Shown piece by piece: positions 4,300 through 55,845 of a DNA stretch of 64,000 bases; position 1 is the stretch's first letter; each line of letters starts with the position of its first letter. The notes under the pieces were generated by a model, which worked only from the letters and a program-made list of their open reading frames with translations, was not told the DNA's origin and ran no database searches. The stretch comes from Clostridiales bacterium (GTDB lineage: Bacteria; Bacillota; Clostridia; Lachnospirales; Lachnospiraceae). The stretch spans positions 1 to 64,000 of the forward strand of contig JAJQDV010000049.1 of assembly GCA_021202015.1 (NCBI GenBank), given 5' to 3'. Both the position numbers and the translations under genes were made by a program.

Positions 4300-4418
4300 G
4301 GGCGGCCTCCTTTCATGTTTTTCGGGCAGGGCAATCCCTGTCGTTCAGTTCCTTTCCAGTCTGCCATTCGGTTGCCTGCAATCCATACCCTTCAGTTAAT
4401 TTCAGGCAGGCTCTGTTC

Positions 4419-4517: not shown

Positions 4518-4530
4518 GGCAGGTCCTGCC
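4515..4530 (-). other. Hairpin just after the cbiD stop codon
   Basis: GGGCAG-GTC-CTGCCC is a GC-rich inverted repeat that begins four bases after the cbiD stop. It lacks a following U-run, so it could stabilise the cbiD message end or weaken read-through into cbiF rather than act as a full terminator. Confidence 0.45.
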
Positions 4531-4533
4531 CGG

Positions 4534-8541: not shown

Positions 8542-8551
8542 TTTTCCTCCT

Positions 8552-9496: not shown

Positions 9497-9509
9497 TCGC
9501 CTTCCCTCC

Positions 9510-10529: not shown

Positions 10530-10547
10530 TGCTTTTCTCTCCTTCAT

Positions 10548-12550: not shown

Positions 12551-15328
12551 CTACCGTCTCACACAGAGCGTATCGATCCCGTCGCCGTCCCAGTCGCCGA
12601 CATATACCTCATCCGTGGACCTTCCGTAAGAAATCGTTTTATCCGGACTGCCTCCGGAAATACTGTACTTGATGGAAAACTGATTCCCGCTCCTCACACA
12701 GAGCGTATCCGTCCCGTCCCCGTTCCAGTCGCCGGCCAGCGCCTCATCGCTGTCCCCGCCGTAATCGACGGACACATCCGCTGTCCCGGCAGAAATCGAG
12801 TTGCTGAAATAATAATTGCTTCCGCGCCTCACGCAGAGCGTATCAATCCCGTCCCCGTTCCAGTCACCGACCAGCACCTCATCCGTACTTCTTCCGTAAT
12901 CGATCTCAATGTCCGCGGAGCCTTCGGAGATGCTGTTTTTAAAATAATAGGTGTTTCCGCGTCTCACACAGAGCGTATCCACCCCGTCGCCGTTCCAGTC
13001 GCCGACCAGTACCTCATCCGTGCTCTTCCCATACACCGCTATGTAATCCGCGTCCCCGGAAGTAATACTGTTTTTAAAATAATATGTGCACCCGGAAGGA
13101 TAGGACACGGACTGCGCGTACAGCGCCGTCATGAGATTCACGATCGCGTATCCGTATCCGGCGGACGACGCCCATCCGAGACCGTTCGGATTCTCCTGCT
13201 GTCCGAGCCACTCCACATAAATCGCGGATCCTCTGGTTACATAGCTGAATCTCGGATCCACACATTCGTTATTCAGACTGTCCGTACTGGCATAGGCCTT
13301 CAGATGCTGCACATGCGCGCGGATCCCGAGACGAACGGTGGAAAATGTCGCGTAACTGGTTGTTGAAGAAGATACCGCGCCGAGTCCGCAGAAATTATAC
13401 GCTGTGATCGACACCGTCCCGCCGAATTTCAGCCATCCGGTCTCATACATCGACTGACAGAATGCCACCGCGGGGTCCACGCCCTCCGCTACGCACTCGT
13501 CATAATAAATCTGGCAGAAATCCGTAATCGTCGGCGCGTCCGAGCTGCTGTAGTAGGACGGATAGCTCGCCTTGGAATTATAGTATGCCACCATCTGCTG
13601 AACGGTAGTCGTCGGAGAATTCATGATAAATGTGTATATGTAAGACGTCGCATTTCTTCCTTCCGCCTTCCCGTAATTGATGTAATGCAGATAATACGAC
13701 GGCAGATCATCTCCGAACGCCTTCTGCAGATCATAATAATTACTCTTATAAATCGTTACATTAAAGTCCTCGCTTGCCTGACGTCCTTCTTTCATCCCAT
13801 ACGTAACAAAATGCTTCAGTGCCGCGGTCTGATCGCTCCCAAAAGCAGCCTTAAGATCCGCATACCTGTTAATATAGTAATCATAATCATATACGGCAGA
13901 ATAGTCCACACCATCATATACCGTTGAAGAATCATCCGAGGAAGCGCCCTTCACAAGTCCGAAATAGGAAGCGATTCCCGTCGCGTCCGCGACGCCAAGG
14001 CTCTGCAGCCCGGACTCTGTAGAGAGGTAGGTCGACACATCCGATGAATTCGTCAGAAACGCGTGCTCTACAATAATCGCGGGAAAACCATACAGTTTGC
14101 TGTTCTTGATCACACCGTAATAATCCGCCAGAGAACCGTCGCTGTAGGTCGACCCATCCTCGGAGTTTCGAATCTTCGTGCCACGGCTCGTCAGACCGAG
14201 CGCCACCAGCTGTTCCAGAACGGCGGCCGCCAGCGCCGCCCCTTCTGAGCCGACCGACGAATTATAGTTTGAATTCGGGTAATACACCTCCGCTCCGTTC
14301 GCGGATGTACTCGTCGCTGAATTCAGATGAATGCTCACATACACATCCGCTCCGACACCGGCCGCGTAGATCACGCGGTTTTTATTGCACACGGTGGACG
14401 TCGTTCCCGAATAGGGGCAGTCTTCGGTATCACGCGTCATATATACGGTCACGCCGCTGTAGGTCTCCAGCTCCTCCTTGCAGTACTGCGCGATCTTCAG
14501 CGTGAGCTCCTCTTCCTTCAGGCCGTTTGCGCTCGCGCCCGCGTGGGCCGCGTCATGACCCGGATCCAGGACGACCACCACGTTCTCAGAGGAAGAGTAC
14601 GTGGTAATGGCGTCCTCCGAATCACTGTCGTCCGCCTGTTCGGACAGAGCCTCCTCAATACTGTTCGCCGACGTCTGATTGCCATCCTCGTCGAAGGTGA
14701 CGATGCTGATATCAATATCATCAACTGATATCTCCTCATCGGCATCCGCCTCCCCGGAGTCTGTATCATCCTCGGAATATGTATCATCAGCAGAACCGGT
14801 ATCTTCATCCGCCGTCTCCGCATCATCATCCGTATCCTTCACGACCTCGGCGTCCGCGGCAGTCTCAACCAACGTCTCCACCCCGTAGGACGCTTCGATC
14901 CCCGCATCAGACAGCTCGATCGTATACAAAATACCGCCCGTCACAAAAGCCACGGCGTCCAGGATATATACGCCGATCCCGCTCTCCTCACTGTATTCAA
15001 TCTCAAACTGCAGGGCGTCGCCGTCGATCACGGACGCCGCCGCTTCATATGTACTGTCGTCGGACTCACGATGAAAGTTAAGCACCGCCGAATCGATCTC
15101 AATATCGTCGTCACCAATCGAAACCACGATGCTCTGCATCTCGCCAAACTCCACATACGGCTTGTCCACGACGAGATAATTCAGTAAAATCCCATCGGAC
15201 GCGGTCTCTTCTGTAACTTCCGAATCATCCGCGTCTGCGGTCTGCGCATCAGACGCATAAACGGGAATGGCAGATATCATCATGGACAAGGCCAGTATAC
15301 CGGCCAACAACTTCTTCTGTCTCTTCAT
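12551..15328 (-). CDS. Secreted multidomain N-acetylmuramoyl-L-alanine amidase with glucosaminidase-like domain
   Basis: The 925-residue protein has a signal peptide (MKRQKKLLAGILALSMMI...YAS) and an acidic Asp/Glu-rich stretch (~165-205). An Amidase_3 domain spans ~248-460: VVVVLDPGHDAAHAG, EEELTLKIAQ, SIHLNS and VEHAFLTN give the usual zinc ligands and catalytic Glu. Next come two copies of a DYDYYINRYADLKAAFG/YGMKEGR-type module (~475-570), common in clostridial surface proteins. A glucosaminidase-like domain follows (~590-735, FCQSMYETGWLKFGG and YNFCGLGA). Four ~45-residue C-terminal repeats each contain a DWNGDGxDTLCVR loop, resembling FG-GAP/VCBS calcium-binding repeats. It should cut peptidoglycan outside the cell. 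A strong promoter lies upstream and the GT2/rfb genes follow directly. Confidence 0.93.
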   Translation of the reverse strand: MKRQKKLLAGILALSMMISAIPVYASDAQTADADDSEVTEETASDGILLNYLVVDKPYVEFGEMQSIVVSIGDDDIEIDSAVLNFHRESDDSTYEAAASVIDGDALQFEIEYSEESGIGVYILDAVAFVTGGILYTIELSDAGIEASYGVETLVETAADAEVVKDTDDDAETADEDTGSADDTYSEDDTDSGEADADEEISVDDIDISIVTFDEDGNQTSANSIEEALSEQADDSDSEDAITTYSSSENVVVVLDPGHDAAHAGASANGLKEEELTLKIAQYCKEELETYSGVTVYMTRDTEDCPYSGTTSTVCNKNRVIYAAGVGADVYVSIHLNSATSTSANGAEVYYPNSNYNSSVGSEGAALAAAVLEQLVALGLTSRGTKIRNSEDGSTYSDGSLADYYGVIKNSKLYGFPAIIVEHAFLTNSSDVSTYLSTESGLQSLGVADATGIASYFGLVKGASSDDSSTVYDGVDYSAVYDYDYYINRYADLKAAFGSDQTAALKHFVTYGMKEGRQASEDFNVTIYKSNYYDLQKAFGDDLPSYYLHYINYGKAEGRNATSYIYTFIMNSPTTTVQQMVAYYNSKASYPSYYSSSDAPTITDFCQIYYDECVAEGVDPAVAFCQSMYETGWLKFGGTVSITAYNFCGLGAVSSSTTSYATFSTVRLGIRAHVQHLKAYASTDSLNNECVDPRFSYVTRGSAIYVEWLGQQENPNGLGWASSAGYGYAIVNLMTALYAQSVSYPSGCTYYFKNSITSGDADYIAVYGKSTDEVLVGDWNGDGVDTLCVRRGNTYYFKNSISEGSADIEIDYGRSTDEVLVGDWNGDGIDTLCVRRGSNYYFSNSISAGTADVSVDYGGDSDEALAGDWNGDGTDTLCVRSGNQFSIKYSISGGSPDKTISYGRSTDEVYVGDWDGDGIDTLCVRR

Positions 15329-16626: not shown

Positions 16627-16646
16627 TCTCCGGTTCACCTCCTCCT

Positions 16647-20466: not shown

Positions 20467-20624
20467 GTATAATCGGACTTATTTCACAGTAGAAAAATGA
20501 TTTCTTCTGTGTTATTATGTTTTTTGACTGCATCCACAGCATCAGAGACGTCAGATTAATATTCCTGATTTTCCGATGCCGTATATGGATCACAGATTCT
20601 CCGAAGGATAAAGAGGACATCAGA

Positions 20625-23029: not shown

Positions 23030-23058
23030 TACCGGGAGCTGCGCTGTAGCTCCCGGTA
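23030..23058. terminator. Bidirectional intrinsic terminator
   Basis: TACCGGGAGCT and AGCTCCCGGTA form a perfect 11-bp stem with a seven-base loop, with a T-rich stretch on the plus side and AATTTTTTCTT on the minus side. It separates the convergent DUF2142 gene and GH25 gene. Confidence 0.88.
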
Positions 23059-23073: not shown

Positions 23074-25014
23074 TTATTTTATAAATGCCCTCGATGTACT
23101 GCCCGGAGCGGCTCCTCCCTTTTCCACAAGTACGATCTGAATCGCCTCCAACCGTTTTGACAATCCCTCCGTGCCAGCCGACTCTCCGTTTTTCGCCCAG
23201 CCCAGCCAGCCGTAGGTCTGCGCGTGCACCCGATAATAAATATCATACTTCTCCGCCATGGTTCCCGTCAGCTCGATCTGAATCGCCTCGAGACGCTTTG
23301 ACTGTCCGGTTGTCCCGGCGGTTCCCCCTCCGGTTGTCCAGCCGCTCTGCCAGCCGTAGGTCTGCATATGGACTCTGTAGCGGATATTGGAAGAACTGGC
23401 CTGTGTTAAAGAAATCCGAATCGCTTCCAGACGTTTCGCCTGTCCCGTCGTACCTGCGATCAGACTTTCCCCCATTGTCGACTGCCAGCCATAGCTCTGT
23501 CCGTGAACACTGTACTGTACCCTGTTATTCCTGTAGGCGTTCGATGACGACCCCGGCGCAGAGGAGCCCGCGGAAACCACAACAATCTGAATCGCCTCCA
23601 CGCGTTTACTGTATCCGTATGAACCGGCGGGATTTCCGTTTTTCGCCCAGCCGGTCCAGCCAAATGTCTGGCAATGCACCCGATAATAGATATCATAATC
23701 GTCCGCGGCGTCGCCGGTCAGCTCGATTTTAATCGCTTCAATATACTTCGACTTTCCTGTCGTTCCCGCCGTGGCGCCGTCCGAAACGGAACTCATCCAC
23801 CCGTAGCTCTGTACGGAAACACTGTATTTGACTCCCAGATTCTCATAATCATCCCCTACTTTAATCTGGATGGCTTCCATTCTCTTTGATTTTCCTGTAT
23901 AGCCGCTCTGCGTTCCGTTCTCCGTCCAGGACTGCCACCCGTACGACTGTATGTGTGTTCGATAGGAAATCAGATCCGGATCTTCTGTTTCAACAGTATC
24001 CGCATCCGCGGACACCCAGAAATCAAGATCCACATATCCGTCGATGCCATTCACGGTTCCGGTAGAGGTACACTGCCAGATATCATAAGAGCCGGTGTAA
24101 GTACAGGTCGAATTAAACTGCGCAACCCATTTTGACCAGGAAGTATTGTCAAACACGGAACTGGTCAGATAATTCGTCCACCAGTTTTTGTTCGCGTAAA
24201 TCCCGACGTCATAGCCGGAAGCGGAGACGGTATCGCAGAATGTCTTCGCGATGTTGCCCAGCATGGTGTTTCCCACGCTGATCGTCGAATCGTCCTCCAT
24301 GTCCAGATAAACGGCATAGGTCGGGGTGTGCCCTTTCAGGAGCCGCAGTACATGCTGAGCCTCGCTGGCCGCCTCCGCCGTAGTCGTAGCGTAGGAATAC
24401 AGATACACGCCGTAGTCGATGCCGAGCCGTTCACACTCTGACACATTATATTCCCAGTAGGTGTCGTCATAGGAAGTCGTATTCTTCCCGTAGCCGCAAC
24501 GGATGATCGCGAATTCGATTCCGGCCGCCTTTACCTTCTCCCAGTCGATCTTTCCCTGCCATTTGCTGACATCGATCCCCTTTAATTTCGCATTCGGGAT
24601 CGCGTCTCCCTCGCTGTTTACATAGACGCCGTTTACCTTGTTCCAGGCATTGGCATACGTAGAGGACAGCGGGAAAAACAGACTGTCCTGAATCAGTTCA
24701 CCGTTCGAATAACGCCAGCTGTTCTCCAGCAAAACTTCATCGTCCTCCTCAGTATCCGCTGAAACAGTTTCATTCGAATCTGTCTGCGCTTCCACCGCTG
24801 CTGTTTCATCTGAGTCCGCCTGAGCTGTCACGGTCTCGTTATCTTCAGAGTTCGCCTGATTCCCGGCCGCAGCATCCTCCTTCGTATCTCCCTGTGTTTC
24901 TGTATAGACTGTATCTGTCGTTTCGGCGGCGTCTGCCGATGTCATGACGCCCGAAAGCCCCGAAACAATAAATACAGCCGCCATCATAGAAGCAAACATC
25001 TTTTTAAAACGCAT
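23074..25014 (-). CDS. Secreted GH25 lysozyme with six ChW repeats
   Basis: The 646-residue protein has a signal peptide (MRFKKMFASMMAAVFIVSGL), a Thr/Glu/Ala-rich acidic linker to ~100, and a GH25 catalytic domain at ~143-335. LKGIDVSKWQGKIDWEKVKA, FAIIRCGYG and YLDMEDD carry the catalytic Asp/Glu residues. Six ChW repeats of ~50 residues follow, each of the form Y..H.QSYGW...NG..AGT.G.SKR.EAIQI. GH25 enzymes cut the MurNAc-GlcNAc bond; ChW repeats are thought to bind the cell surface or carbohydrate. The start follows AAGGACAGGTTT. It is the last of four ChW genes in a row. Confidence 0.95.
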   Translation of the reverse strand: MRFKKMFASMMAAVFIVSGLSGVMTSADAAETTDTVYTETQGDTKEDAAAGNQANSEDNETVTAQADSDETAAVEAQTDSNETVSADTEEDDEVLLENSWRYSNGELIQDSLFFPLSSTYANAWNKVNGVYVNSEGDAIPNAKLKGIDVSKWQGKIDWEKVKAAGIEFAIIRCGYGKNTTSYDDTYWEYNVSECERLGIDYGVYLYSYATTTAEAASEAQHVLRLLKGHTPTYAVYLDMEDDSTISVGNTMLGNIAKTFCDTVSASGYDVGIYANKNWWTNYLTSSVFDNTSWSKWVAQFNSTCTYTGSYDIWQCTSTGTVNGIDGYVDLDFWVSADADTVETEDPDLISYRTHIQSYGWQSWTENGTQSGYTGKSKRMEAIQIKVGDDYENLGVKYSVSVQSYGWMSSVSDGATAGTTGKSKYIEAIKIELTGDAADDYDIYYRVHCQTFGWTGWAKNGNPAGSYGYSKRVEAIQIVVVSAGSSAPGSSSNAYRNNRVQYSVHGQSYGWQSTMGESLIAGTTGQAKRLEAIRISLTQASSSNIRYRVHMQTYGWQSGWTTGGGTAGTTGQSKRLEAIQIELTGTMAEKYDIYYRVHAQTYGWLGWAKNGESAGTEGLSKRLEAIQIVLVEKGGAAPGSTSRAFIK

Positions 25015-25065
25015 AAACCTGTCCTTGTCCTCTCCACACTTTTGTTTTCCGATTTTTCTGTAACT

Positions 25066-25094
25066 ATTCTATGTGGCAGTTCCTTAACCGTGAA
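25066..25094 (-). promoter_or_regulatory. Possible promoter for the GH25 gene
   Basis: TTCACG, 17 bases, TAGAAT on the minus strand in the 159-base gap after the L,D-transpeptidase gene. A GGCGGT/ACTGCC pairing upstream could close a structured RNA, but no known riboswitch consensus was recognised. Confidence 0.35.
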
Positions 25095-25173
25095 TATTCC
25101 GGCTTGCTACGCTTTTCCCGTCCTGTTTCACCATGCAGAATCTGACGCAACAGCAGACCGCCGTAACTTATCT

Positions 25174-27294
25174 TTAGTACACAACCACTGTCGTCCCTCT
25201 CGGCACATTATCATAGATCCACTTCGCGTTCTCAATCTTAAGTCTTACACAGCCGTGAGACAACGCCATGCCTACTCTTCCGTCCTGCAGAGTGCCGCTT
25301 TTTGTATACAGAACCGAATGGAACAGATAATTTCCGTAAAACTGTGTCCACCAGTAACATCTCGATGAACCGGAGTCAAAATAATATCCTTTGTTCTGTA
25401 CGCTAAACACTCCAGCTACGGTCGGTGTGCTCGCCTTTCCGTTCGCGCAGTCCCATTTATACAGATATTCCCACTTTCCTTTTGACCCTTTGAAAATACC
25501 CACCTTATGAGAATCCCGGTCGACCATGATCAGATACTGAGTCGGGCTGGAATACTGCATGGCTTTTGCCTGCATGGCATCCGTCGCCGTGATCTTCTTC
25601 TGATTCGTATAATAGTTCGCGTTCGCTCCGGGTGCGGAGCAGTCTTTCGGCACCAGCACGATCTGCAACGCCTCCAGACGGTAGGAGATGCCGGTCGTCC
25701 CGGCAGTCTGGCCGTTCTTCGCCCAGCCCAGCCAGCCGTATTTCTCTACATGTGCCCGGTAATAAATATCATAATAGTTTGCCAGATTTCCGGTCAGCTG
25801 GATCTTTACCGCCTCCAGGCCGCGTGAGCTGCTCGAGGATCCACTCGCAGTCCCGCAGGACGACCAGCCGGTCCATCCGGTGCCGGATACATGCGTCGCG
25901 TACTGAATCGTTCCCGACGGGAGCGAACTGCTGCTTCCGCTCAGATAAAGCGTGATATTCTGAAGCTGTTTCGACTGTCCCGTCGTCCCGAGCGTTGCTT
26001 TCTGCGCAACCGTTCCGGTGCTTCCTCCGCCTGTAATCTGCGCGCTGTATGTAAACGCGGAAGAAGAATATCCCGCTATGTATTTCGTACCCGAGGTGGA
26101 AGGAGCCGTGTCGACTCCCTTTTTCACCAGGCATACTTTGATCGCCTGTATCGGCTTGCTCAGCTCCGTTGTGCCGGTCGTCTCACCGTTGCAGGCATAA
26201 TTACACCAGCCGATCTTTGACATGTGCACACTGTAATAGACATCATAATAATTGGCGACGTCTCCCGTCAGCTTGATTCGTATGGCCTCGATCCGCTTTG
26301 ACTGTCCCGTCGTGCCGGCCGTCGCCCCGTTTGACTTCCAGTCCATCCATCCGTATCCCTGCACATAGACCTGATACTGGATACTCCCACTGTATTCAAT
26401 CTCAGAGGAAAGCTGCAGCCGGATCGCTTCCAGTCTCTTATTCTGACCGACTGTACCCGACACAACATTTTCCATGACACTGCTCTGCCAGCCGTAAGTC
26501 TGTACATAAGCCTGCGTGCTCACCCTGGAATACACATAGCTCTTTGATGTCGATCCCGGAGCGGCGCCGCCCTTTTCTACCAGGACGACCTGAATCGCCT
26601 CGATCCGTTTGGAATATCCGGAACTTCCGGCCTTCTCCCCGTTTTTCGCCCAGCTCAGCCAGCCGTAGGACTGCGTGTGCACACGATAATAGACATCATA
26701 CTTCTCGGCGATCGGACCGGTCAGCTTTATGGTGATCGCCTCCACGCGCTTCGACTGTCCCGTCGTGCCGGCGACCGCGCCGTTGCTCACGGACGACTGC
26801 CATCCGATACTCTGCACATGGGCACTGTAGGTGATGCCGCTGCCTGCCCACTCGTCGGAATCAACATTCTGAAGGCTGATCTTAAAAGCCTCCACGGCAA
26901 GAGACTGCCCGGTCGTTCCGGCCGTCTTGCCTTCGCTCACAGCACTGAGCCATCCCTTCTTCGCGACATGCGTCTGATACTGAAGTGTCGGTACTGTCCC
27001 CGAATCAGCCGCGGTTTCAAGGATCACGGTTTCATCCTCTTCGGCTTCGATCTCCTCTTCATCCGCAGAGGTATCGGCAACCGCTGCATCCGTCTCCTCC
27101 TCACTGACCTCCGCTTCCTCCGACGCGCTCTCCAGAATCAATGCTTCATCTTCTTCGGTACCGCTCTGAATCTCCTCCGCGGCGATATCCTCTGATACCT
27201 CTGCCGCATAGGCCATACTGTTCGGAACCACTCCGGACACAAGCACGGTCAACGCCAGGATGATCGCTGCGAACCCTCTCATCATTCTTCTCAT
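25174..27294 (-). CDS. Secreted L,D-transpeptidase (YkuD) with about nine ChW repeats
   Basis: Start set to ATG 27294, six bases after GGGAGG; the ORF-track TTG lies inside that spacer. The 706-residue product has a signal peptide (MRRMMRGFAAIILALTVLV) and an acidic linker. About nine ChW repeats occupy ~95-545, the seventh degenerate (lacking the GW core). A C-terminal YkuD domain (~580-706) carries NYLFHSVL and the catalytic ALSHGCVRL motif with its cysteine. YkuD enzymes make 3-3 peptidoglycan cross-links or attach proteins/polymers to peptide stems. Placing the catalytic domain at the very C-terminus after many wall-binding repeats suggests it acts far out in the wall. Confidence 0.94.
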   Translation of the reverse strand: MRRMMRGFAAIILALTVLVSGVVPNSMAYAAEVSEDIAAEEIQSGTEEDEALILESASEEAEVSEEETDAAVADTSADEEEIEAEEDETVILETAADSGTVPTLQYQTHVAKKGWLSAVSEGKTAGTTGQSLAVEAFKISLQNVDSDEWAGSGITYSAHVQSIGWQSSVSNGAVAGTTGQSKRVEAITIKLTGPIAEKYDVYYRVHTQSYGWLSWAKNGEKAGSSGYSKRIEAIQVVLVEKGGAAPGSTSKSYVYSRVSTQAYVQTYGWQSSVMENVVSGTVGQNKRLEAIRLQLSSEIEYSGSIQYQVYVQGYGWMDWKSNGATAGTTGQSKRIEAIRIKLTGDVANYYDVYYSVHMSKIGWCNYACNGETTGTTELSKPIQAIKVCLVKKGVDTAPSTSGTKYIAGYSSSAFTYSAQITGGGSTGTVAQKATLGTTGQSKQLQNITLYLSGSSSSLPSGTIQYATHVSGTGWTGWSSCGTASGSSSSSRGLEAVKIQLTGNLANYYDIYYRAHVEKYGWLGWAKNGQTAGTTGISYRLEALQIVLVPKDCSAPGANANYYTNQKKITATDAMQAKAMQYSSPTQYLIMVDRDSHKVGIFKGSKGKWEYLYKWDCANGKASTPTVAGVFSVQNKGYYFDSGSSRCYWWTQFYGNYLFHSVLYTKSGTLQDGRVGMALSHGCVRLKIENAKWIYDNVPRGTTVVVY

Positions 27295-27381
27295 TGTCAA
27301 CCTCCCTGCTTTTTATTTATTGATGTCCTCCGGACAGCCTTCTCTGCTTCGACTGCCGGATCGACTTTCCCTCCTTCCCGA

Positions 27382-29127
27382 TCAACGGAAAGAAGAATAT
27401 ACCACTCCATTAGACATGCCTCCCCGCAGAAGCGCCATCTCCTCCACGGTAACCAGCTGATATCCCCTGCTGACCAGGCTCGGGATGATCGTAAGGGATG
27501 CCGTCGCTGTCGCCTGATACAGGTCATGCATCAGAACGATATCCCCGTCCTTCACATTGTTCAGAACCGAATTAACCGTCGATACCGAGTTTCTGGTCTT
27601 CCAGTCAAGCGTATCGATGGACCAGAGGATCAGCGGCATGCCTACAGTACTCCTGACAGTTGCGTTGTACGCCCCTCCGGGCGGTCTCATGATGGTCGGC
27701 GATACGCCGGTCACACTCTTCACCGCGTTATTAGTCAGGCTGATCTGACTCTGAATCGTAGCCACACTCGCCGTTGTCAGTGTCGTATGGTTATATGTAT
27801 GATTCCCGATCTGGCACCCCAGATTATAGGCCCGTTTTACAATACTGCTGTAGGAACCGACCCGCTCACCGACCACAAAAAATGTCGCTTTACTGTTATA
27901 CTTTTCCAGTGTATCAAGGATCGTCGTCGTATATTCGGACGGTCCGTCGTCATACGTGAGGGCAACCATCTTCTGATTGCCGTATACTGTCCTGTACAGA
28001 GTCCCGCTGGAATTATAATAATAAATATTGCCGTTTTTAACAACACGGCCGGATGTAATGATCGGCGTGTCCTTATAATATCCGCTGTTCGCACCCGGCG
28101 CAGGAGCCTCCTTCGGGACGATCTGAATCTGAATCGCCTCGATTCGGTAGGAAATACCGGTCGTCCCGGCTGTCTGGCCGTTCTTCGCCCAGCCCAGCCA
28201 GCCGTATCCCTGCACATGGACACGATACCATACATCACAGTAGTTTGCAATATCCCCGGTCAGCTGAATCTGTATCGCTTCCATCCGCTTGGACTGACCG
28301 GTCGTCCCGGCCGACGCCCCGTTCGAAACCCAGCTCTGCCAGCCGTAAGACTGCACATGCGTCCTGTACTTCACACCGCCGCTGACCGTACCGCCGGACA
28401 GGGAAATGCTGACCGCCTCCATCCGCTTCGACTGACCCGTCACACCCAGGGTCGTCCCATTCGACACTGACGACAGATTCCCATACGTCTGCTGGTGTCC
28501 GCTGTAACTGATACTTCCCAGATCGGACTTTGTCAGATACGACCAGGATCCGGAGTTCGACGGTGCGCTTCCGCCCTTTTCCACCAGCACGATTTGAATC
28601 GCCTCGGCGCGCAGATACAACCCGTTCGTGCCGCACCAGCCTGCGGTTCCGCTCGCGCTGTCCCCATCGCTCAGTCCCTTCGTCCACTTCGTCCATCCGT
28701 ATTTCTGGATGTGCATCGAGTAATAAATGTCATACTGCTCCGACAGTTCTCCGGTCAGCCGGATCTGGATCGCCTCAATCCGTTTCGACTGCCCGGTCGT
28801 CCCGGCCAGCGTCCCGTCGGACACCCAGCCCATCGTACCGTAGCTCTGCACATGCACGCGGTACTGGATACTTCCCTCCACATCGGAGAGCGCGGAGCCC
28901 TTTGAAATGCTGACCGCCTCCAGACGTTTCGACTGCCCGGTGATGCCGAGCACCGTCCCGTCCGATACCGCCGGGAGATTCCCGTATGTCTGCTGATGCC
29001 CTGAATAAACGATAAGGCTGCCGGTTGAAGCGGTCGCCGCAAAGGCTGTCGTCGGTATCATTGCCAGCAGCATCACCGCAGCTAACAGGAATGCCAGCCA
29101 CCCGGTTTTGTGTTTTCTCTTTTTCAT
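27382..29127 (-). CDS. Secreted polysaccharide deacetylase (NodB/CE4) with six ChW repeats
   Basis: The 581-residue protein has a signal peptide (MKKRKHKTGWLAFLLAAVMLL), six ChW repeats (~35-345), and a CE4 deacetylase domain (~380-575). All five motifs are visible: ALTYDDGPS, HTYNHTTL, RPPGGAYN, DTLDWKTR and VLMHD. These give the catalytic Asp, metal-binding Asp-His-His and catalytic His. Likely substrates are peptidoglycan GlcNAc/MurNAc or the N-acetylated sugars of the exported polymer. It starts 24 bp after the rhamnosidase stop, so the two are cotranscribed, and its repeats closely match those of the rhamnosidase. Confidence 0.95.
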   Translation of the reverse strand: MKKRKHKTGWLAFLLAAVMLLAMIPTTAFAATASTGSLIVYSGHQQTYGNLPAVSDGTVLGITGQSKRLEAVSISKGSALSDVEGSIQYRVHVQSYGTMGWVSDGTLAGTTGQSKRIEAIQIRLTGELSEQYDIYYSMHIQKYGWTKWTKGLSDGDSASGTAGWCGTNGLYLRAEAIQIVLVEKGGSAPSNSGSWSYLTKSDLGSISYSGHQQTYGNLSSVSNGTTLGVTGQSKRMEAVSISLSGGTVSGGVKYRTHVQSYGWQSWVSNGASAGTTGQSKRMEAIQIQLTGDIANYCDVWYRVHVQGYGWLGWAKNGQTAGTTGISYRIEAIQIQIVPKEAPAPGANSGYYKDTPIITSGRVVKNGNIYYYNSSGTLYRTVYGNQKMVALTYDDGPSEYTTTILDTLEKYNSKATFFVVGERVGSYSSIVKRAYNLGCQIGNHTYNHTTLTTASVATIQSQISLTNNAVKSVTGVSPTIMRPPGGAYNATVRSTVGMPLILWSIDTLDWKTRNSVSTVNSVLNNVKDGDIVLMHDLYQATATASLTIIPSLVSRGYQLVTVEEMALLRGGMSNGVVYSSFR

Positions 29128-29151
29128 GTCACTTACCCCTAAAAATGCATT

Positions 29152-32100
29152 TTATTTATACAGGTATGACCACGACGACGAATTCGTCGGCGCGGCGGTT
29201 CCCTTTTTCACAAGCACGATACGGATGGCTTCCGCGCGCTTCGCCATTCCGCTGGTGCCGCACCATCCGGCAGTCCCGTCTGCACTGTCCCCCTCGCTCA
29301 GCCCCTTTGTCCATTTCGACCATCCGTAGGTCTGCACATGCACGGAGTAGTAAATATCATACTGCTCGGACAGTTCTCCGGTCAGCCGGATCTGAATCGC
29401 CTCCACACGCTTCGCCTGCCCGGTCGTCCCGGCCAGCGTCCCGTCGGAAACCCAACCCTGCGTCCCGTAGGTCTGCACATGTACGCGATACTGAATACTG
29501 CCGCTCACCGAAGTCAGTTGATTACTCTTTCGGATGCTGACCGCCTCCAGTCGTTTCGCCTGTCCGGTCGTCCCCAGCAGCGCACCGTCCGACTTCTCCG
29601 AAAGATTTCCGTAAGTCTGCACATGTCCGGCATAGAATACGGAATTTCCCGCCTCATTTGTGAGCAGTCCCCAAGATGTATTTGATACGATGCCGCCCAG
29701 ATTGGAAGCGGGCGCACTGGAATTTCCGCTGCTGTCTTTTTTCACCAGAACGACCTGGATGGCTTCCATCCTCTTGCTCAGGCCGGTCGTTCCCGCCGCC
29801 TCGCCGTTCTTTACCCAGCTCGTCCATCCGTAGGTCTGACAATGGACACGGTAGTAGATGTCCCAGGTATCGGCTGCGCTTCCGGTCAGCTCGATCTTTA
29901 CCGCCTGGATCATCTTGTTTGTAACGCTGTCCACTTCACCGTCATAACACCAGCTCCGCCAACCATAGGTCGCTACATGGGTGGAATACCGGATGCCGCC
30001 GTCCGTCTGTGTGTTCAGCACCAGCTGCAGCCGGTATAAAGCCTGTGCATCTCCGGTACTGCCGCTCATATTCCCGTCCGTTTCATACGACCCCCAGGAG
30101 GAGCCGCAGGTCCGGTATACCACATTCTCATTTTCTTTTAATTCCGAAGTGTCGGCGTAATTGCCGCTGCCGCCGGCGACTGTGTGCGTCCCGCTGCCGA
30201 GCGTTACTGCGAGATAAAGCCCGTCCGATACCTCCGCGCTCATTGTCTCGCCGTCCACAGTCAGCGTCGTATTCGCCGTGTTCGATACGGGAATCATTAC
30301 TCTGGCCTGCGTATTCGCCGGAACACAGATGGTCAGGGAGATCCCGCCGTTTCCGTCCATGGCATAGGAAGCCTCAATACTTCCCTGCAGCGTCGGTACC
30401 GTCACGGCGGCTTCCTCGACGCCGCCCGGCTGAAGCTTCACGTCAAACGTCCGGTATCCGCCCGACGTCGGCGTAATCCCGAACAGCCCTGTCACCAGCC
30501 AGGTACCGGGTGCGCTTCCCCAGGCATGGGAATACGACAGATTCGACTTGACCGAGCTGTCCCAGGCTTCCGACGTCGTCGTCGCACCCACGCTGTAGAG
30601 CATGTTCGCCCAGGTATGGCTGCCCTCATAGGTACTCGGATTGCTCAGGATCTGTCTGGCCAGCGTCCCCTCATTGCTGCGGTACAGTCCCTGCAACAGG
30701 AAATAGGTGGCGTAGACGCTCATCTGGTTTAATCCATCCTCACTGATGCTGTCCGCCAGCGTATCCGCCATGGACTGATCCGAATAAACGCCATATGCCA
30801 GCGCAAATGCCGTGGCCTGCTGCGCGTAATGATCCACTGCCGTGCCGGAGGAGGTCAGTCCGTCCCGGAATCTGCCTTCACTCGCATCATACAGTCTGGA
30901 GATCATGCTGCTCTTCACCGACTGCGCTTTTGCCGACCAGGTGCTCGCGTTACTGCTTTTCCCCAGCACCTGCGCAATATCCGCCATGGACTCGCAGGCG
31001 CCCGCATACACCGCGTTCAGCACCGTATTATAATAAGAGTTTGTCGTATCATATCCGTCTCTCTCATTGGTCGGCCAGTCCACCAGGATCGTCAGGGACG
31101 GCTTTTTCACGAGACCGTTGGAACCTGTGCTGAACAGATTCATCGCGGATTGCAGAGCGGAGTAATGCTCCTCCAGAAACTGCGTATCTCCGGAGTAGAG
31201 GTAATACTGCCAGGACGCCATAACGGCATACAGCCGATATTCCGCCGGCCAGGTCGGATTCGCGATCGCGTAATCCAGGGACTTCTTTGCCAGAGAATAA
31301 TCGCTTTCCATGGAAAACGCAGTCGTCATATTGATCAGCAGGTCGCCGCTGTATACCTGCCGTTCCCTGCTCTGCGTATCCACATACAGGTTCTGGCTCG
31401 TAGCGAGGATCGTATATTTTGCCAGATCATACTCATTATTCAGGATCGTGCTGGAACTGGAAAAATCCGAGGCCTCCTCCGTAAACTCCTGCCGCACCTG
31501 CAGTCCTTTCACATTTGAAGCGGATATCGTGTTCGAGCATCCGCTGATCTGCACATAGCGGAAGGTTTTCATGTTCAGTCCGGAAATCTGCTGACTGCCC
31601 TTTTTCAGCGTCCAGGTCTCCGCGTAAACATTTCCGGTCCTCATGGAATATTTTACACTCCCATTGGAATTCAGCTCTTCCCCATAATAAATCTTTATAC
31701 TCTGCTTCGCGGAACTGTTGATCGTAAGCTTGAGGCTCCCGCTGATCTCCTCGCCGAAATCGATGACATAGCTCCCGTCTGACAGCTTTTTCACGCTCTT
31801 CGGCGTCACCTCGTACCGCGAGATATTATCCTCCTCCTCCGGTTCCAGCGTGTAGGAAGAGATCCCCTTCACCGAGGAGGCCGACTTCCACGAAGATGTG
31901 CTGTATCCCGCGTCCAGCCAGCCGTGGGGATAAACTGTGCTGTTAATATTCTCAGCCGCCTGCGTATAGTATGTGGTATTCGACACCAGAGAGGATGTCT
32001 TTCCGTAAGCGCTGTCTCCCGCCAGCGCCCGCCAGGAATTGTGCGCGGTATCCGTGCTGAGGAGGACCGCGCTCGTCCCATCCTTATAATAGGCCGTCAT

Positions 32101-33123
32101 CTGTCCGAGGAAAGCATGCCCGGTCTCCGAATAACAGATCACCCCGATCACATTGCTGCCGTTTTCCATATACTCCGTCACATCATAAGTATTGTAATAG
32201 AGAACGCCCTCATTCACGCGGCTCGGCCCCATGCCCACACATTCCCCGTTGAGATAGAGATTGTAGACATACTGCCGGGTATCCTCCGGCGATATGGCAG
32301 TCGCGGTGAAAATCACTTTCTCCACATCGCTCATGTCCACGGTGGTTTCGCTTCTCAGAAATACAAAATCATCTGTCCCCGTCCAGATGCCTTTCGAAGC
32401 ATTCCATCCGCTCCCGACAGCTGTGGAGAAAGCCTGCGCCCCGGACAGCCCGCTCGTCCTGCCGTAGTTATCCCGGATCTGGACCTGCCAGTAATACAGC
32501 TGATTTTCCGCTGCATCCATTGCAATCGATACATTTGTGTTCGCATCCGACTCCACCCAGCCGGTATCGTATACATAATCCGACTGCGCGATCTGCGCCT
32601 CCGTCTGCGCGACCACAATGCGGTAAGCGGCCTGCACGGTATCATCCTGATCCGAATCGATACTCCAGCTGAAATACAGAGCATCCGCGGAAACGCCGAA
32701 AGGCTCTGAAAGCAGGTTGATACGCATGTCCCCGACGGCCAGTCCATCGTCATCCGTGTCATTCACGGAAGCCGCCTGTACCGGCGCCTCTTCCTCTTCA
32801 GAAGATGCCTCTTCCCTGGACGCAGGCTCTTCTTCCGCGGCAGCTTCCTCCGAAATCAAATCGCGGTCGGCCTCTTCATCTCCATCGGAAACCGCATCAC
32901 CGCCGGAAAGGCTCTCATCAGCGGAAGTGAATTCGCTGTCGGAAAAATCCTCTTCCCCAAAGCCCTCCTCCTCCGAAGCGGAGTTTTCTCCCGCGACGGA
33001 TTCCGTCACCACACCTTCCTCACCGGACAAATTCAGATCAGTCCCCGCCGCGGACACCGGTTCGGCTACCGCAGAAAAAATCAATGCTCCCGACAGAAGT
33101 AAACCTAACCATCGTTTTCTCAT
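29152..33123 (-). CDS. Secreted GH78 alpha-L-rhamnosidase with ChW repeats
   Basis: The 1323-residue protein has a signal peptide (MRKRWLGLLLSGALIFSAVA) and a long Ser/Glu/Asp linker (~30-145). Beta-sandwich domains typical of bacterial rhamnosidases follow, including YNLYLNGECVGMGPSRVNEG. A helical catalytic region (~555-890) carries TQSRERQVYSGDL and VDWPTNERDGYDT in place of the usual RDERxxWxGD motifs. After it come a C-terminal beta domain (VTVPTLQGSIEASY) and about six ChW repeats (~1000-1320), the first degenerate. It should release terminal alpha-L-rhamnose. Together with rfbABCD in the same cluster this suggests trimming of the cell's own rhamnose polymer, although use on foreign glycans is possible. 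AAAGGAGACAAAAA precedes the ATG. Confidence 0.92.
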   Translation of the reverse strand: MRKRWLGLLLSGALIFSAVAEPVSAAGTDLNLSGEEGVVTESVAGENSASEEEGFGEEDFSDSEFTSADESLSGGDAVSDGDEEADRDLISEEAAAEEEPASREEASSEEEEAPVQAASVNDTDDDGLAVGDMRINLLSEPFGVSADALYFSWSIDSDQDDTVQAAYRIVVAQTEAQIAQSDYVYDTGWVESDANTNVSIAMDAAENQLYYWQVQIRDNYGRTSGLSGAQAFSTAVGSGWNASKGIWTGTDDFVFLRSETTVDMSDVEKVIFTATAISPEDTRQYVYNLYLNGECVGMGPSRVNEGVLYYNTYDVTEYMENGSNVIGVICYSETGHAFLGQMTAYYKDGTSAVLLSTDTAHNSWRALAGDSAYGKTSSLVSNTTYYTQAAENINSTVYPHGWLDAGYSTSSWKSASSVKGISSYTLEPEEEDNISRYEVTPKSVKKLSDGSYVIDFGEEISGSLKLTINSSAKQSIKIYYGEELNSNGSVKYSMRTGNVYAETWTLKKGSQQISGLNMKTFRYVQISGCSNTISASNVKGLQVRQEFTEEASDFSSSSTILNNEYDLAKYTILATSQNLYVDTQSRERQVYSGDLLINMTTAFSMESDYSLAKKSLDYAIANPTWPAEYRLYAVMASWQYYLYSGDTQFLEEHYSALQSAMNLFSTGSNGLVKKPSLTILVDWPTNERDGYDTTNSYYNTVLNAVYAGACESMADIAQVLGKSSNASTWSAKAQSVKSSMISRLYDASEGRFRDGLTSSGTAVDHYAQQATAFALAYGVYSDQSMADTLADSISEDGLNQMSVYATYFLLQGLYRSNEGTLARQILSNPSTYEGSHTWANMLYSVGATTTSEAWDSSVKSNLSYSHAWGSAPGTWLVTGLFGITPTSGGYRTFDVKLQPGGVEEAAVTVPTLQGSIEASYAMDGNGGISLTICVPANTQARVMIPVSNTANTTLTVDGETMSAEVSDGLYLAVTLGSGTHTVAGGSGNYADTSELKENENVVYRTCGSSWGSYETDGNMSGSTGDAQALYRLQLVLNTQTDGGIRYSTHVATYGWRSWCYDGEVDSVTNKMIQAVKIELTGSAADTWDIYYRVHCQTYGWTSWVKNGEAAGTTGLSKRMEAIQVVLVKKDSSGNSSAPASNLGGIVSNTSWGLLTNEAGNSVFYAGHVQTYGNLSEKSDGALLGTTGQAKRLEAVSIRKSNQLTSVSGSIQYRVHVQTYGTQGWVSDGTLAGTTGQAKRVEAIQIRLTGELSEQYDIYYSVHVQTYGWSKWTKGLSEGDSADGTAGWCGTSGMAKRAEAIRIVLVKKGTAAPTNSSSWSYLYK

Positions 33124-33205: not shown

Positions 33206-35548
33206 TTACGGTTCATCTGCAGCCGCGGCAATCATATCCGCCAGAGCCTGTGCATTCCCCATCTCCGCAAACAGATGCCGTTCGTCCTCCGCAAACAGCT
33301 CCCGGTTCGCGGAGTTATCCCCCAAAATCATCTTCTTTTCCATCGCTTCATAAATATAGGCTTTTCCCGGAATTGTCCGCTTCGCCTTGTCGATCGTGGG
33401 ATGAAAATGTCCCGCAAGGCACAGATCCGCCTGCGCGATCTGCGCCGCCAGCTCCGGCTGAGACAGCCACTCATAAAACGTGGTATAAGGAAAATCTTCT
33501 TTCTTCACCCTTTTCACATCAACAGGGCCGATCATCGTAAACCGGATATCATTCCTGTCCCTCAGGATACGCTGTGCCTCCAGAATCACTTCCACGCCCT
33601 GCAGAGGCAAAATGCTGCCAAAATACAGAACCCGAAACCCTCTGTCATGATCCGGATCCCTGTCAGAGCTGTACCTGTCCTTGTCATAAATGCCGGTATC
33701 AGCCTCCAGGTACAGCACTTCCATCTTCTCAAAGGTCGCCTGAAACTCCTCCGAGAAGTATCTGCCGTCCGCAGCCGTGTCCACGATCACATGTTGTGAA
33801 TTTTCCAGTACCTTTCTGTCAATCCGATGCAGGATACGCGCCGGCAGAGATTTTGTTCCGAAATAACTTCTGTCATTGACACAGGTATCATACATGGAAA
33901 TAAAGAAATCGATGATGACCGTTTTCTGTCTGTTCCATTTCCTGAGGAACGGGAATACCAGCTGCGGAGAGAATCCGACAAAGATCACATCGGCCCTCTT
34001 CCAGGCTCCTCCCAGACAGGCGCGCCAGACTTTCAGAATCCGTTTGGGATAAGAAGAATCCGAAAAAACGATCTCCTCGAACTCCGCGGCATTTTCACGC
34101 AGAATTCGGATCTCCTGAAGATTTCGGATATAGTCCCTGTTCTTTGTCGACAGGAAAAGCACCTTCTTCCCTGCAGCCAGATCTGTCATGCTCTCACTCT
34201 TTACATTCACAGCATCCTCCGCATGTTTCCCTTCCCGTTCCGAAACTGCCCGATTCCTTCTCTCCTTCCGGATCAGGCGAAGGACGCAGAGAAACATTAT
34301 GATGTCCGCCGCCAGAAGTATCCCGATATAATAACAGCACAAACCTCTCAATTCATAATTGCGCAAAACCGACTTTCCGGTAATCACAAGAAGCAGGGAT
34401 ACTGCCGTAAATATGACATAGAAAATCGCCTGCTTCCGCAGCAGGATGATAATCAGATACAGCAGATTCAGAATGGCAATCAGTCCTCCTGCGATGAGCA
34501 TCAGATCCACTTCCACATGATAATCGTCCAGTGAAACACCGTAAATCCATCCCAGCAGGCGTGTGCCGATTAGCTCAGCAAAGAACACCCCGACGGCCAC
34601 AATTCCCGCCACGGCAGCGATCAGCCGGACGATACGCTTCTGAAGCCTGTCATGCTCACCCTGCTCCCGCCAGATCGCCATCCGGTTCAGCACCGGATTG
34701 AACATAAAGTTACTCAGCAGCGTCACGATATAGATGACCATAAATAAAATATTGAAATACGTCTGCTCCCGATCTGAAACCACCGAATCAATAATATATT
34801 TCGGCGCGTTGCTGATATACATCAGAAGAAACGTGGCAAATGCCACCGGTATGCATTCAACAAGCAGGGGCTTCATTTTCCCGCCGCTCTCCGAAGCCGG
34901 AGAAACCCGGTACTCCCTGCGCGGAATCCGGTTCAGAAGAAGGCTGAGGACCAATGTCGTAACAATGGAAATGACCAGTGACCCGATCAGATCCCGCAGA
35001 TAAAAATAGCAGACCATAAACTCCGCGATAAACACGATATTGCGGGTCGCCCATATTTTTGCGGAAATATCCAGACGGCCGAGCTGCTGCAGTCTTCCAT
35101 GCCACACATCCTCTGTGGATTCGATCATCTTATAGAGGCACAAAAGGGCAACCGTCGCCGTCTTAATCGGCACGTACTGCCGATATACCACATTAAAGCC
35201 GCAGTAGATCAGTGTAAACACCGCCATGGCAGCAATTGTCAGAACTCTCATATTCCTGTAATCGCGGAAATGATAATGCTCCGTGACATCCGTGACCTGG
35301 AAATTCCGCACGCCGAATTTTCCGACCGTCATCGCCAGATTGGCCGCGGCAAACCCGATCGCGATGTAACTCGCCGCCTCGATCTCGCCGAAACGAGTCA
35401 GCACCAGCATAAACAGCATGCTCTGAAAGGAGCTCGTCATGGCAGCCACCATATTCCAGAACCAGGCACTGCGATGCGGATTTTTGCTGTTCAGATATAA
35501 TCTGTAAATAAAATTTTCACCTTTGGAATTCGTCTGCGTCTCTATCAT
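33206..35548 (-). CDS. Fusion of MOP-type polysaccharide flippase and GT4-like glycosyltransferase
   Basis: The 780-residue protein (start ATG 35548; a TTG 27 bases upstream is the alternative) combines two functions in one uninterrupted frame. Residues ~1-420 are a multi-helix flippase with GKFGVRNFQVTDVTEHYHFR, closely resembling the stand-alone flippase at 41309 (GVRNFQVTDVAEQYSFR). After a charged linker (ERKHAE-like, ~425-445), residues ~445-780 form a soluble GT-B-like domain: KKVLFLSTKNRDYIRNLQE, FRVLYFGSILPLQGVEVI, and GKAYIYEAMEKKMILGDN with an E-x7-type donor motif. The gene overlaps the GT-C gene upstream by 32 bp. It may couple sugar addition to flipping; that is inference. Confidence 0.85.
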   Translation of the reverse strand: MIETQTNSKGENFIYRLYLNSKNPHRSAWFWNMVAAMTSSFQSMLFMLVLTRFGEIEAASYIAIGFAAANLAMTVGKFGVRNFQVTDVTEHYHFRDYRNMRVLTIAAMAVFTLIYCGFNVVYRQYVPIKTATVALLCLYKMIESTEDVWHGRLQQLGRLDISAKIWATRNIVFIAEFMVCYFYLRDLIGSLVISIVTTLVLSLLLNRIPRREYRVSPASESGGKMKPLLVECIPVAFATFLLMYISNAPKYIIDSVVSDREQTYFNILFMVIYIVTLLSNFMFNPVLNRMAIWREQGEHDRLQKRIVRLIAAVAGIVAVGVFFAELIGTRLLGWIYGVSLDDYHVEVDLMLIAGGLIAILNLLYLIIILLRKQAIFYVIFTAVSLLLVITGKSVLRNYELRGLCCYYIGILLAADIIMFLCVLRLIRKERRNRAVSEREGKHAEDAVNVKSESMTDLAAGKKVLFLSTKNRDYIRNLQEIRILRENAAEFEEIVFSDSSYPKRILKVWRACLGGAWKRADVIFVGFSPQLVFPFLRKWNRQKTVIIDFFISMYDTCVNDRSYFGTKSLPARILHRIDRKVLENSQHVIVDTAADGRYFSEEFQATFEKMEVLYLEADTGIYDKDRYSSDRDPDHDRGFRVLYFGSILPLQGVEVILEAQRILRDRNDIRFTMIGPVDVKRVKKEDFPYTTFYEWLSQPELAAQIAQADLCLAGHFHPTIDKAKRTIPGKAYIYEAMEKKMILGDNSANRELFAEDERHLFAEMGNAQALADMIAAAADEP

Positions 35549-37253
35549 GATATCCTTTATTTTGAATTTTAACAAATACTCCTCTATACAACAATGTCAG
35601 CCCACAATAAATAGAAACAATTTTAAATATTTCCATCAGGATATAGGCTCCACTGCAATAATATGGCACTGACAGGCTCCCCCAATTAGAAAAAACAGTA
35701 AAAATAAACATCTGGACAAACGCACTCAAGAGTACTGCCAAAAGGATAATCCACCTGTTAAATAATCGTTTATTTTTCAATTTTATATTAGGAACCTGCA
35801 ATATCGTCATAGCCACAAACGAAAGCACAGACAAGATACACAACGGCCATCTTAATATCTCATATACTTTTATAATATGATTTTCTAATTCTACGATTCG
35901 GTCAGACATCTGCACATACAAATCGTCCTCTTCATCCGGATACAAAAGCATTGAATTGACCACAAATTCCCATTCTCTTATTTCTTCATCTGAGCCACTG
36001 CTATAAGCAGTCTGCGACTCTACTCCCTCGTATGAAAAAATCTGACGCGCTGTATCTGTAATTGTTACCTTCACGAAATATGGTATTTCTTCTATTTCCA
36101 ACATTTTTGTACTGCTGGACAGGAAAATCCCCGATTTTATCATCAATTCACCATTATTGATCTGTTCCTGCAATTCATCTCGCACATTCTGAAGATATTC
36201 TATTGTTTCTTTTCCGTCCAAATAAAATCCAGCATTCGCTAAACCTGTTCGAAAACTCCACTGAATAATATCGCCATAAACATACTTACCGGTAGAGGCC
36301 CAACTCCGATAAGCAGCCAGATATATATCTTTATATTCTGACAAGGATTCACTGTGGTCAATAATATATTCATATTTATCAATTGACATAAAACAAATGT
36401 CCTCATTTAATTCCGGATCCGTATCATCATAGTCAATTTTGATGAATAATTCAGCCACATCATTAAATGCTGTTTTCGTCCTGTCATTTGTCGCAAATAT
36501 CCCATATTGGCTATAATTGATGCAGCGTAATGTAAGATTTCCTGCACATAAGATAAAAAATGGCATAAAAATAATTACCATTTTTTTCACAAGACCTGTC
36601 AGTTTTTTTTGTCTTCCGCCGTGTAAAATCAAAAAGATTCCGGAAAATATACTGCCAATGACAGCAAACGGAAAAATCCATATGGTATCTTCCCGAAGAT
36701 TGCAAAAGAAAAACAGGCTTACTCCTGCAAGGACAGAATATTTTATCATGTTTTTTTGCCTGCCAAGATTAAAATAGATCCCCAAAATCCCTGCAAATAT
36801 CAACAATACGAACGGTACGGTCAGTGCATTTCTATACAATCTCTGTACTACCGAATAATGAAAAGTTATGGGAGAGTAAATTAAAAATAAAAAAACAACA
36901 TATCGGACCCATTTTTTTGTTATAATATTCTTTAATACTTTTACCAAAATACCTGCTGACACAATATACAGCACCGATAAAAAAACGGAATACGGTATTC
37001 TGGTCAGACCGCAAAATGCACAAAACAATGAATACGTACAACCTTTCATCAACGTAAATTGGCTATATTCTCCCAGCCAATTACCTCTCATAAGGTTTAT
37101 CGTCATATTCATCAGACCCCCATCGTCATGAACCAACTCGGTTCTTGCATATACCGGGGTATTATAAGACAGCCATATTCGAAAAACAACCAATACTATT
37201 AATAATAACCATATTATCAGAGAACATTTGTTTACTTTTTTTAAATAGTTCAT
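35517..37253 (-). CDS. AT-rich GT-C-like multi-pass membrane protein
   Basis: The 578-residue protein has an N-terminal helix, a first external loop with ELVHDDGGLMNMTINLMRG (acidic DD motif as in GT-C transferases), about ten more helices, and a large loop (~250-420) before the last four helices. It probably transfers a polyprenyl-linked sugar outside the membrane. The gene is markedly more AT-rich than the rfb or ChW genes. No good ribosome binding site precedes ATG 37253; instead GAGGAG precedes a five-codon ORF (MKMGD) ending 12 bases upstream, so translation may be by reinitiation. Exact family not recognised. Confidence 0.72.
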   Translation of the reverse strand: MNYLKKVNKCSLIIWLLLIVLVVFRIWLSYNTPVYARTELVHDDGGLMNMTINLMRGNWLGEYSQFTLMKGCTYSLFCAFCGLTRIPYSVFLSVLYIVSAGILVKVLKNIITKKWVRYVVFLFLIYSPITFHYSVVQRLYRNALTVPFVLLIFAGILGIYFNLGRQKNMIKYSVLAGVSLFFFCNLREDTIWIFPFAVIGSIFSGIFLILHGGRQKKLTGLVKKMVIIFMPFFILCAGNLTLRCINYSQYGIFATNDRTKTAFNDVAELFIKIDYDDTDPELNEDICFMSIDKYEYIIDHSESLSEYKDIYLAAYRSWASTGKYVYGDIIQWSFRTGLANAGFYLDGKETIEYLQNVRDELQEQINNGELMIKSGIFLSSSTKMLEIEEIPYFVKVTITDTARQIFSYEGVESQTAYSSGSDEEIREWEFVVNSMLLYPDEEDDLYVQMSDRIVELENHIIKVYEILRWPLCILSVLSFVAMTILQVPNIKLKNKRLFNRWIILLAVLLSAFVQMFIFTVFSNWGSLSVPYYCSGAYILMEIFKIVSIYCGLTLLYRGVFVKIQNKGYHDRDADEFQR

Positions 37254-39988: not shown

Positions 39989-40083
39989 CAGCCAAACTCC
40001 TCTTTTCCAAGAATTATATATCAAATAATACATCGCATACTATAAGTACAGAAACAACTTCTGTTTTTATAGTCCACTTGACA

Positions 40084-46209: not shown

Positions 46210-46210
46210 A

Positions 46211-55691: not shown

Positions 55692-55845
55692 CCTTATTCC
55701 TCACCATATAACACACATAAGACAACTATACGGGTGTGGCTGTTCCCTGCAGAACAGCATACGCTCACATCTGCATCAGCCTGAATCACCGCCCGAAACT
55801 TTTCTCTCCAAATCTCCGGCATCCTGCGCCCATCTCCGCACCGGT

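Follow-up and report, generated by a model that had tools for sequence, protein, structure and literature searches.

A set of four consecutive genes at positions 23074-33123 (minus strand) of a 64,000-bp stretch from a Clostridiales bacterium of the Lachnospiraceae (GCA_021202015.1, contig JAJQDV010000049.1, positions 1 to 64,000; this whole stretch is referred to as the window) encodes a GH78 rhamnosidase, a CE4 deacetylase, a YkuD transpeptidase and a GH25 muramidase, each equipped with ChW repeats. This cassette probably constitutes the secreted, wall-tethered enzyme set of the surface-polysaccharide locus surrounding it, and would mature or turn over the polymer-wall complex. Similar sets recur in clusters of this kind among relatives from at least four genera, which makes it probable that the enzymes serve to trim or mature the coat of the cell itself and not to digest food.

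Composition of the ChW cassette

Domains, catalytic motifs, repeat architecture and gene order, as well as cross-genus recurrence and the exchange of the rhamnosidase for another enzyme in one sister species, were computed directly. The initial annotation had described four consecutive ChW-enzyme genes on one strand with about 27 repeats. The arrangement was confirmed by Pfam and the repeat hidden Markov model (HMM) counted exactly 27, namely six in GH78, six in CE4, nine in YkuD and six in GH25, forming nine triplets (Table 1). Spacing was ~47 residues within a triplet, a wider step separated successive triplets and grouping was always by three. Scores for PF07538 ranged from 200 to 392 bits per cassette protein, against a cut-off of 22. 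The intergenic gaps were 24, 81 and 159 bp long, 82 bp separated GH78 from the upstream flippase/glycosyltransferase (GT) gene, and a strong terminator closed the run behind GH25. A promoter scan returned more sites than shuffled sequences did, a result that carried little information. Inspection of the four proteins revealed a signal-like N-terminal sequence on all and an LPxTG motif in none. When the whole assembly was scanned, its 25 ChW matches were all confined to these four genes; the window genome is a metagenome-assembled genome (MAG) of 2.2 Mb, 91 % complete, and absences from it are therefore provisional.

Catalytic residues were retained throughout. GH25 displayed intact active-site motifs (D148 in GIDVSKWQG 146-154; D238/E240 in DME 238-240), YkuD the SHGCVR motif (681-686) with upstream H661, and CE4 all five NodB motifs (TYDDG, HTYNH, RPPGG, DTLDW and VLMHD). 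The rhamnosidase, which is the sole GH78 of the window genome (Pfam, genome-wide), possessed the full domain set (PF17389, PF25788, PF05592, PF17390 and PF08531) and the conserved residues E587 and E852, aligned to E636 and E895 of Streptomyces SaRha78A (PDB 3w5m), which we take to be the general acid and base glutamates of that enzyme.

The second ChW triplet of GH78 was nearly a copy of the first triplet of CE4 (75 % identity between amino acids, 78 % between DNA sequences over 436 bp), and the GH78 proteins of two species of the same genus (G009 and G014) ended in another repeat, GDW, instead of ChW. It follows from these two observations that anchors are exchanged between neighbouring genes. 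The GDW repeat is ~45 residues long (RRGNxYYFKNSxxxGxADxxxxYGxxTDEVLVGDWDGDGxDTLCV), matches Pfam FG-GAP only marginally and is common to enzymes of these loci (window 12554-13117, minus strand; L038:4640-7387 and L038:7391-9712; L032:7617-9113; L091; L142), and on GH78 and GH25 it can take the place of ChW or be replaced by it. The predicted structure of GDW (pLDDT 79) resembled the beta-propeller blades of integrins and fungal N-acetylglucosamine (GlcNAc) lectins.

Recurrence of GH78-ChW sets

Seven GH78-ChW loci were considered: that of the window, two from the same genus (G009, G014), three from as many other genera (G123, G395, G413) and one from Dorea SUG81, a MAG named as Dorea but not settled in its genus relation to the others, so that at least four genera are represented. 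Three loci emerged from a single-protein GH78 scan of genome contigs. The six relatives were ~48-73 % identical to the GH78 of the window. At all seven loci, GH78 adjoined other ChW enzymes or was located a few genes away from them; these partners were GH25, YkuD, glucosaminidase, GH2, CE4 or Big_2 proteins. Flippases, family 2 glycosyltransferases (GT2), UDP-glucose dehydrogenase (UGD) or Wzm/Wzt/RmlC were found within ~25 kb at every locus, Wzm/Wzt and RmlC being seen where the available sequence allows. Gene order was shuffled across species while content was largely retained. The earlier proposal that a rhamnosidase is kept with the genes for polymer synthesis thus holds at each of the loci found.

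A GH78 from G158, 39 % identical, displayed no detectable ChW repeat, and its surroundings offered no more than a single, weak neighbour of polysaccharide type. ChW enzymes also formed runs in rml or GT loci of G153, G284 and G060, without GH78 in the stretches read: four consecutive ChW genes lay beside an rml/Wzm/Wzt locus in G153, and ChW genes directly adjoined rmlB in G060.

A putative Rha-GlcA enzyme in the GH78 slot of a sister species

Genome-wide Pfam searches detected no GH78 in the sister species G016. Its equivalent region contained, beside GH25-ChW, a BNR_4 enzyme with GDW repeats (L038:4640-7387) that matched BT3686 and relatives at ~1e-100 and a lyase acting on rhamnose-glucuronic acid (Rha-GlcA) at 1e-22. 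It carried a tyrosine at the position of His48 of BT3686 and retained His90, His110 and the arginine of the lyase pocket; the same residue pattern, including the tyrosine, is reported for FoRham1 (PMC8377490). UGD was present in the G016 locus. The GH78 slot was, as judged from these similarities, refilled by an enzyme of the GH145/PL42 type, a family acting on Rha-GlcA. As a separate observation, this GH145/PL42-like enzyme sits in a polysaccharide locus of Firmicutes. That two unrelated rhamnose-cleaving families fill one slot, beside genes for a polymer containing rhamnose and probably glucuronic acid (GlcA), is the strongest argument for this polymer as the likely substrate.

It seemed improbable that GH78 is instead a surface-displayed exo-rhamnosidase foraging on dietary or mucosal rhamnosides, with ChW repeats serving for display only. 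GH78 enzymes are commonly catabolic, and L-rhamnose isomerase (RhaA) was present in G123, G395 and Dorea SUG81, where rhamnose use is hence possible. However, RhaA was not detected in the window genome, G009, G014, G016 or G413, no rhamnose-catabolic gene was recognised at the window locus, and the partnership with wall enzymes and polymer-synthesis genes was constant. Recurrence, the replacement in G016, the missing RhaA and the single GH78 together favour self-editing over foraging.

Besides the three genomes with RhaA, some other observations weighed against self-editing. In G413, a single-contig genome that is 99 % complete, the GH78-ChW gene was split over several frames with a TAG inside (L139:16757-20000; G413:C1:982810-985826), which indicates that GH78 is not always needed. 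Extra CE4-ChW genes were located outside the polysaccharide locus; the neighbour was an MBOAT acyltransferase gene in two of the species, whereas it was HydF in another (coordinates of the extra genes are L033:2529-5615, L035:11095-14196, L036:120-2000 and L037:1671-4679). A common occurrence of the four genes away from polysaccharide loci, named beforehand as a result that would speak against the proposal, was thus true of CE4-ChW and of ChW genes generally, and not of GH78-ChW. On balance, the initial idea of a surface set editing the cell's own polymer and peptidoglycan found partial support in the seven loci, the refilled slot of G016 and the lack of detectable RhaA in the window genome.

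Distribution of ChW genes and rmlC in Lachnospiraceae

ChW repeats were found in four out of 20 genomes of the genus and in 46 out of 298 of the family. RmlC was similarly frequent in ChW-positive (41/46) and ChW-negative genomes (214/252; p = 0.65), G067 combined many ChW genes with no RmlC match, and a comparison with the window revealed no polysaccharide gene in the stretches read of the ChW clusters of G067, G092, G235 and G290. ChW was consequently rejected, at the level of presence, as a marker of rhamnose-making genomes, and the general rule by which ChW repeats would mark rhamnose polymers was not borne out.

Although their presence was untied to rmlC, ChW genes were enriched near it. 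The flanks of RmlC were scanned in 43 ChW-positive genomes over up to 20 kb on each side (fewer bases at contig ends) and uncovered 14 ChW genes from 11 genera besides that of the window. ChW genes were within 20 kb of RmlC in six of 20 matched genomes, compared to none of 20 at controls consisting of one displaced site per genome (p = 0.010); this corresponds to nine versus zero genes, with 0 ChW in 800 kb of control sequence. Among genomes with few ChW genes, three displayed one near RmlC where ~0.26 were expected (p = 0.002), all of them YkuD and possibly non-independent. ChW triplets from the same genome were slightly more alike than others (0.517 versus 0.490 in the window), a tendency that was strong only in G067. 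Concerted evolution of the triplets of a locus, considered as a possible sign of a common strain-specific ligand, was thus weak.

These distributions bear on a reading in which the cassette is a generic autolysin set: ChW would be a peptidoglycan anchor, the enzymes would be ordinary wall remodellers, and their location would reflect shared regulation or a hotspot of surface genes, with no shared substrate. It agrees with the missing link between ChW and RmlC presence, with the ChW clusters devoid of recognisable polysaccharide genes, with the glucosaminidase, C39, NlpC/P60, CHAP, S8 and GH5 domains carried by ChW enzymes of other genera, and with a phage ChW domain of the Lactobacillus casei type reported to bind peptidoglycan (PMC10610939). 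Peptidoglycan, however, is no target for a rhamnosidase, and still GH78 accompanied the set at all seven loci, its slot being refilled in G016 by an enzyme of Rha-GlcA type. A generic autolysin set is rather unlikely.

Fold and possible ligand of the ChW triplet

The number of ChW repeats was a multiple of three in 61 out of 81 proteins, some of which were truncated or counted twice. AlphaFold2 folded the second triplet of CE4 into a single compact domain made up of beta structure (all-beta; pLDDT 93.8, pTM 0.89), and one triplet is hence predicted with high confidence to form one domain. No PDB entry matched the triplet by sequence or by fold (best E 0.23), and a known PDB lectin was accordingly rejected as fold match. 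Significant structural matches in BFVD were mostly annotated as phage lysins. These neighbours, together with the lysin-like muramidase and amidase domains, would suit a set that cuts the polymers and walls of neighbouring cells, or that protects the producer from phages by altering the polymer they use as receptor. Triplets would tether the enzymes to their producer, though, and the locus contained no recognisable immunity gene; defence or competition is very improbable.

Published data on ChW ligands stem from phage domains only and conflict with each other: opposite to the peptidoglycan binding mentioned above, the lactococcal AM12 anchor, which a manual alignment had placed in ChW, was missing from the wall fraction released by lysozyme/mutanolysin, and a component other than peptidoglycan was proposed as its ligand (PMC6700490, as opposed to PMC10610939). 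A review of 2018 considered the wall ligand of ChW undetermined and suggested a triplet organisation for ChW proteins (PMC5817068). Phage ChW endolysins were tried as a clue to the ligand, and the window repeats matched only two unannotated faecal phage records; transfer of a ligand from ChW domains of lactic acid bacteria was rejected, these domains being too distant. It is conceivable, if doubtful, that the triplet is a lectin of new fold binding the rhamnose polymer encoded by the locus, which would then be both anchor and substrate, while its chain ends would be controlled by an exo-rhamnosidase reserved for this task (GH78, replaced by GH145/PL42 in the sister species).

For self-editing of the coat, we infer secretion, substrates, anchoring ligand, timing and physiological role as follows. 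ChW triplets, one all-beta domain each, would hold the secreted enzymes in the wall. There, GH78 would remove terminal rhamnose from a polymer containing rhamnose, and probably also GlcA, made by the locus and exported by Wzm/Wzt. GH25 would cut the glycan strands of peptidoglycan, YkuD would re-crosslink stem peptides and CE4 would deacetylate GlcNAc in peptidoglycan or, comparable to PplD, at the linkage of the polymer. Jointly, the four enzymes may take part in the maturation, insertion or turnover of the complex of polymer and wall.

The surrounding polysaccharide locus

Downstream of the cassette and on the same strand were found GT2 genes, GtrA, an amidase/glucosaminidase and rmlABDC; upstream were GT2 genes, DegT, Wzx, Wzt, a methyltransferase, Wzm, UGD and an epimerase (Table 1). 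The locus is thus of the ABC-transporter type for a surface polymer, and its genes can provide both dTDP-rhamnose and UDP-glucuronate. The initial placement of the cassette inside a dTDP-rhamnose cluster is valid for this 50-kb locus and not for a single operon, since a plus-strand gene (20517-23021) and other genes intervene between cassette and rmlCDBA. Orthologues of the amidase/glucosaminidase were located within the ChW run in sister species.

Table 1. Features of the ChW cassette and of the surrounding locus in the window
Feature	Position	Strand	Basis or remark
GH25 muramidase, P0001, 646 aa, 6 C-terminal ChW repeats	23074..25014	-	Pfam, motif
GH25 catalytic domain	24043..24576	-	Pfam
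ChW triplet 1 of GH25	23539..23979	-	repeat HMM
ChW triplet 2 of GH25	23083..23529	-	repeat HMM
YkuD L,D-transpeptidase, P0002, 708 aa, 9 ChW repeats	25174..27300	-	Pfam, motif
YkuD catalytic domain	25180..25536	-	Pfam
ChW triplet 1 of YkuD	26542..26994	-	repeat HMM
ChW triplet 2 of YkuD	26089..26532	-	repeat HMM
ChW triplet 3 of YkuD, first repeat degenerate	25615..26067	-	repeat HMM
CE4 polysaccharide deacetylase, P0003, 581 aa, 6 N-terminal ChW repeats	27382..29127	-	Pfam, motifs
CE4 catalytic domain, Pfam core	27649..27978	-	Pfam
ChW triplet 1 of CE4	28546..29022	-	repeat HMM
ChW triplet 2 of CE4 (used for structure model)	28081..28521	-	repeat HMM
GH78 alpha-L-rhamnosidase, P0004, 1323 aa, 6 C-terminal ChW repeats	29152..33123	-	Pfam, conserved glutamates
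GH78 catalytic (6-hairpin) domain	30493..31476	-	PF17389 match
ChW triplet 1 of GH78, partly degenerate	29707..30126	-	repeat HMM
ChW triplet 2 of GH78	29173..29649	-	repeat HMM
Terminator-like hairpin, 3' of last cassette gene (GH25)	23030..23058	-	11 pairs, 7 GC, T-rich tail
rmlC, rmlD, rmlB, rmlA, dTDP-L-rhamnose synthesis	7933..11444	-	
Amidase_3 + glucosaminidase, four GDW repeats instead of ChW	12551..15328	-	
Flippase-like + GT4 fusion, directly upstream of GH78	33206..35575	-	locus position conserved in sister species
Wzt (C-terminal Wzt_C domain), large GT2, methyltransferase, Wzm: ABC-type polymer export	49977..57249	-	Wzt 49977-51449, Wzm 55846-57249
UDP-glucose dehydrogenase (UGD), UDP-glucuronate supply	59187..60425	-	

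Several other genes were observed in the locus. A hexapeptide transferase gene overlaps an ATP-grasp/L-amino-acid-ligase-like gene (44367-46257, minus strand), a pair that suggests a polymer decorated with amino acids or acyl groups. The GT4 part of the flippase-like fusion is a separate gene in G123. An AAA ATPase (AAA_35 and related) is encoded at 38408-40033 (minus strand), a Fic-domain gene lies between cassette and rml (15634-16638, minus strand) and a HipA-type gene at the far edge of the locus (62080-63204, plus strand). Positions 294-5712 of the window carry CbiG, CbiD and two methylases of cobalamin synthesis, split by a PDDEXK-type transposase gene (2215-3219); CbiD and CbiG follow rml in G009 and G014 too.

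Comparison with known systems

Wall-anchored hydrolases are already known, and interest lies here mainly in the rhamnosidase and in a testable ChW ligand. As a single polysaccharide locus holds all detected ChW genes of the window genome, and the triplet is confidently predicted as a single domain that should be expressible, the question of the ChW ligand can be turned into a direct binding experiment. If self-editing is true, certain Lachnospiraceae of the gut would be active in trimming the rhamnose polymers of their own walls. No precedent for a single-locus ChW set with GH78 was found in the literature searched.

The ChW surface proteins of Clostridium acetobutylicum and phage ChW endolysins share with the cassette the PF07538 family and the triplet organisation, and the triplet fold resembles phage lysins; by contrast, the window genome concentrates all its ChW genes in one polysaccharide locus and includes a GH78 rhamnosidase as partner. 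This rhamnosidase has the domain set and catalytic glutamates of SaRha78A-type enzymes, from which it differs by its C-terminal ChW array and by its conserved place in loci for polymer synthesis, not for catabolism. Similarity to the GH145/PL42 enzymes BT3686 and FoRham1 (PMC8377490) resides in the enzyme of G016 and not in a window gene; unlike BT3686, the G016 enzyme carries GDW repeats and a tyrosine in place of the catalytic His48. Streptococcal PplD, the de-N-acetylase of the rhamnopolysaccharide-peptidoglycan linkage (PMC8807736), likewise deacetylates at the cell surface and has a functional link to a wall polymer of rhamnose, whereas the CE4 protein carries ChW triplets and scored best against PgdA/PdaB-type models; the two are likened by description. 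The glucorhamnan of Ruminococcus gnavus is a rhamnose-rich wall polymer of Lachnospiraceae made by a multi-gene cluster (PMC12413058), to which the window locus is likened by description. Rhamnose-rich polymers of this family stimulate dendritic cells (PMC12413058), and editing of such a polymer could thus affect what the host sees.

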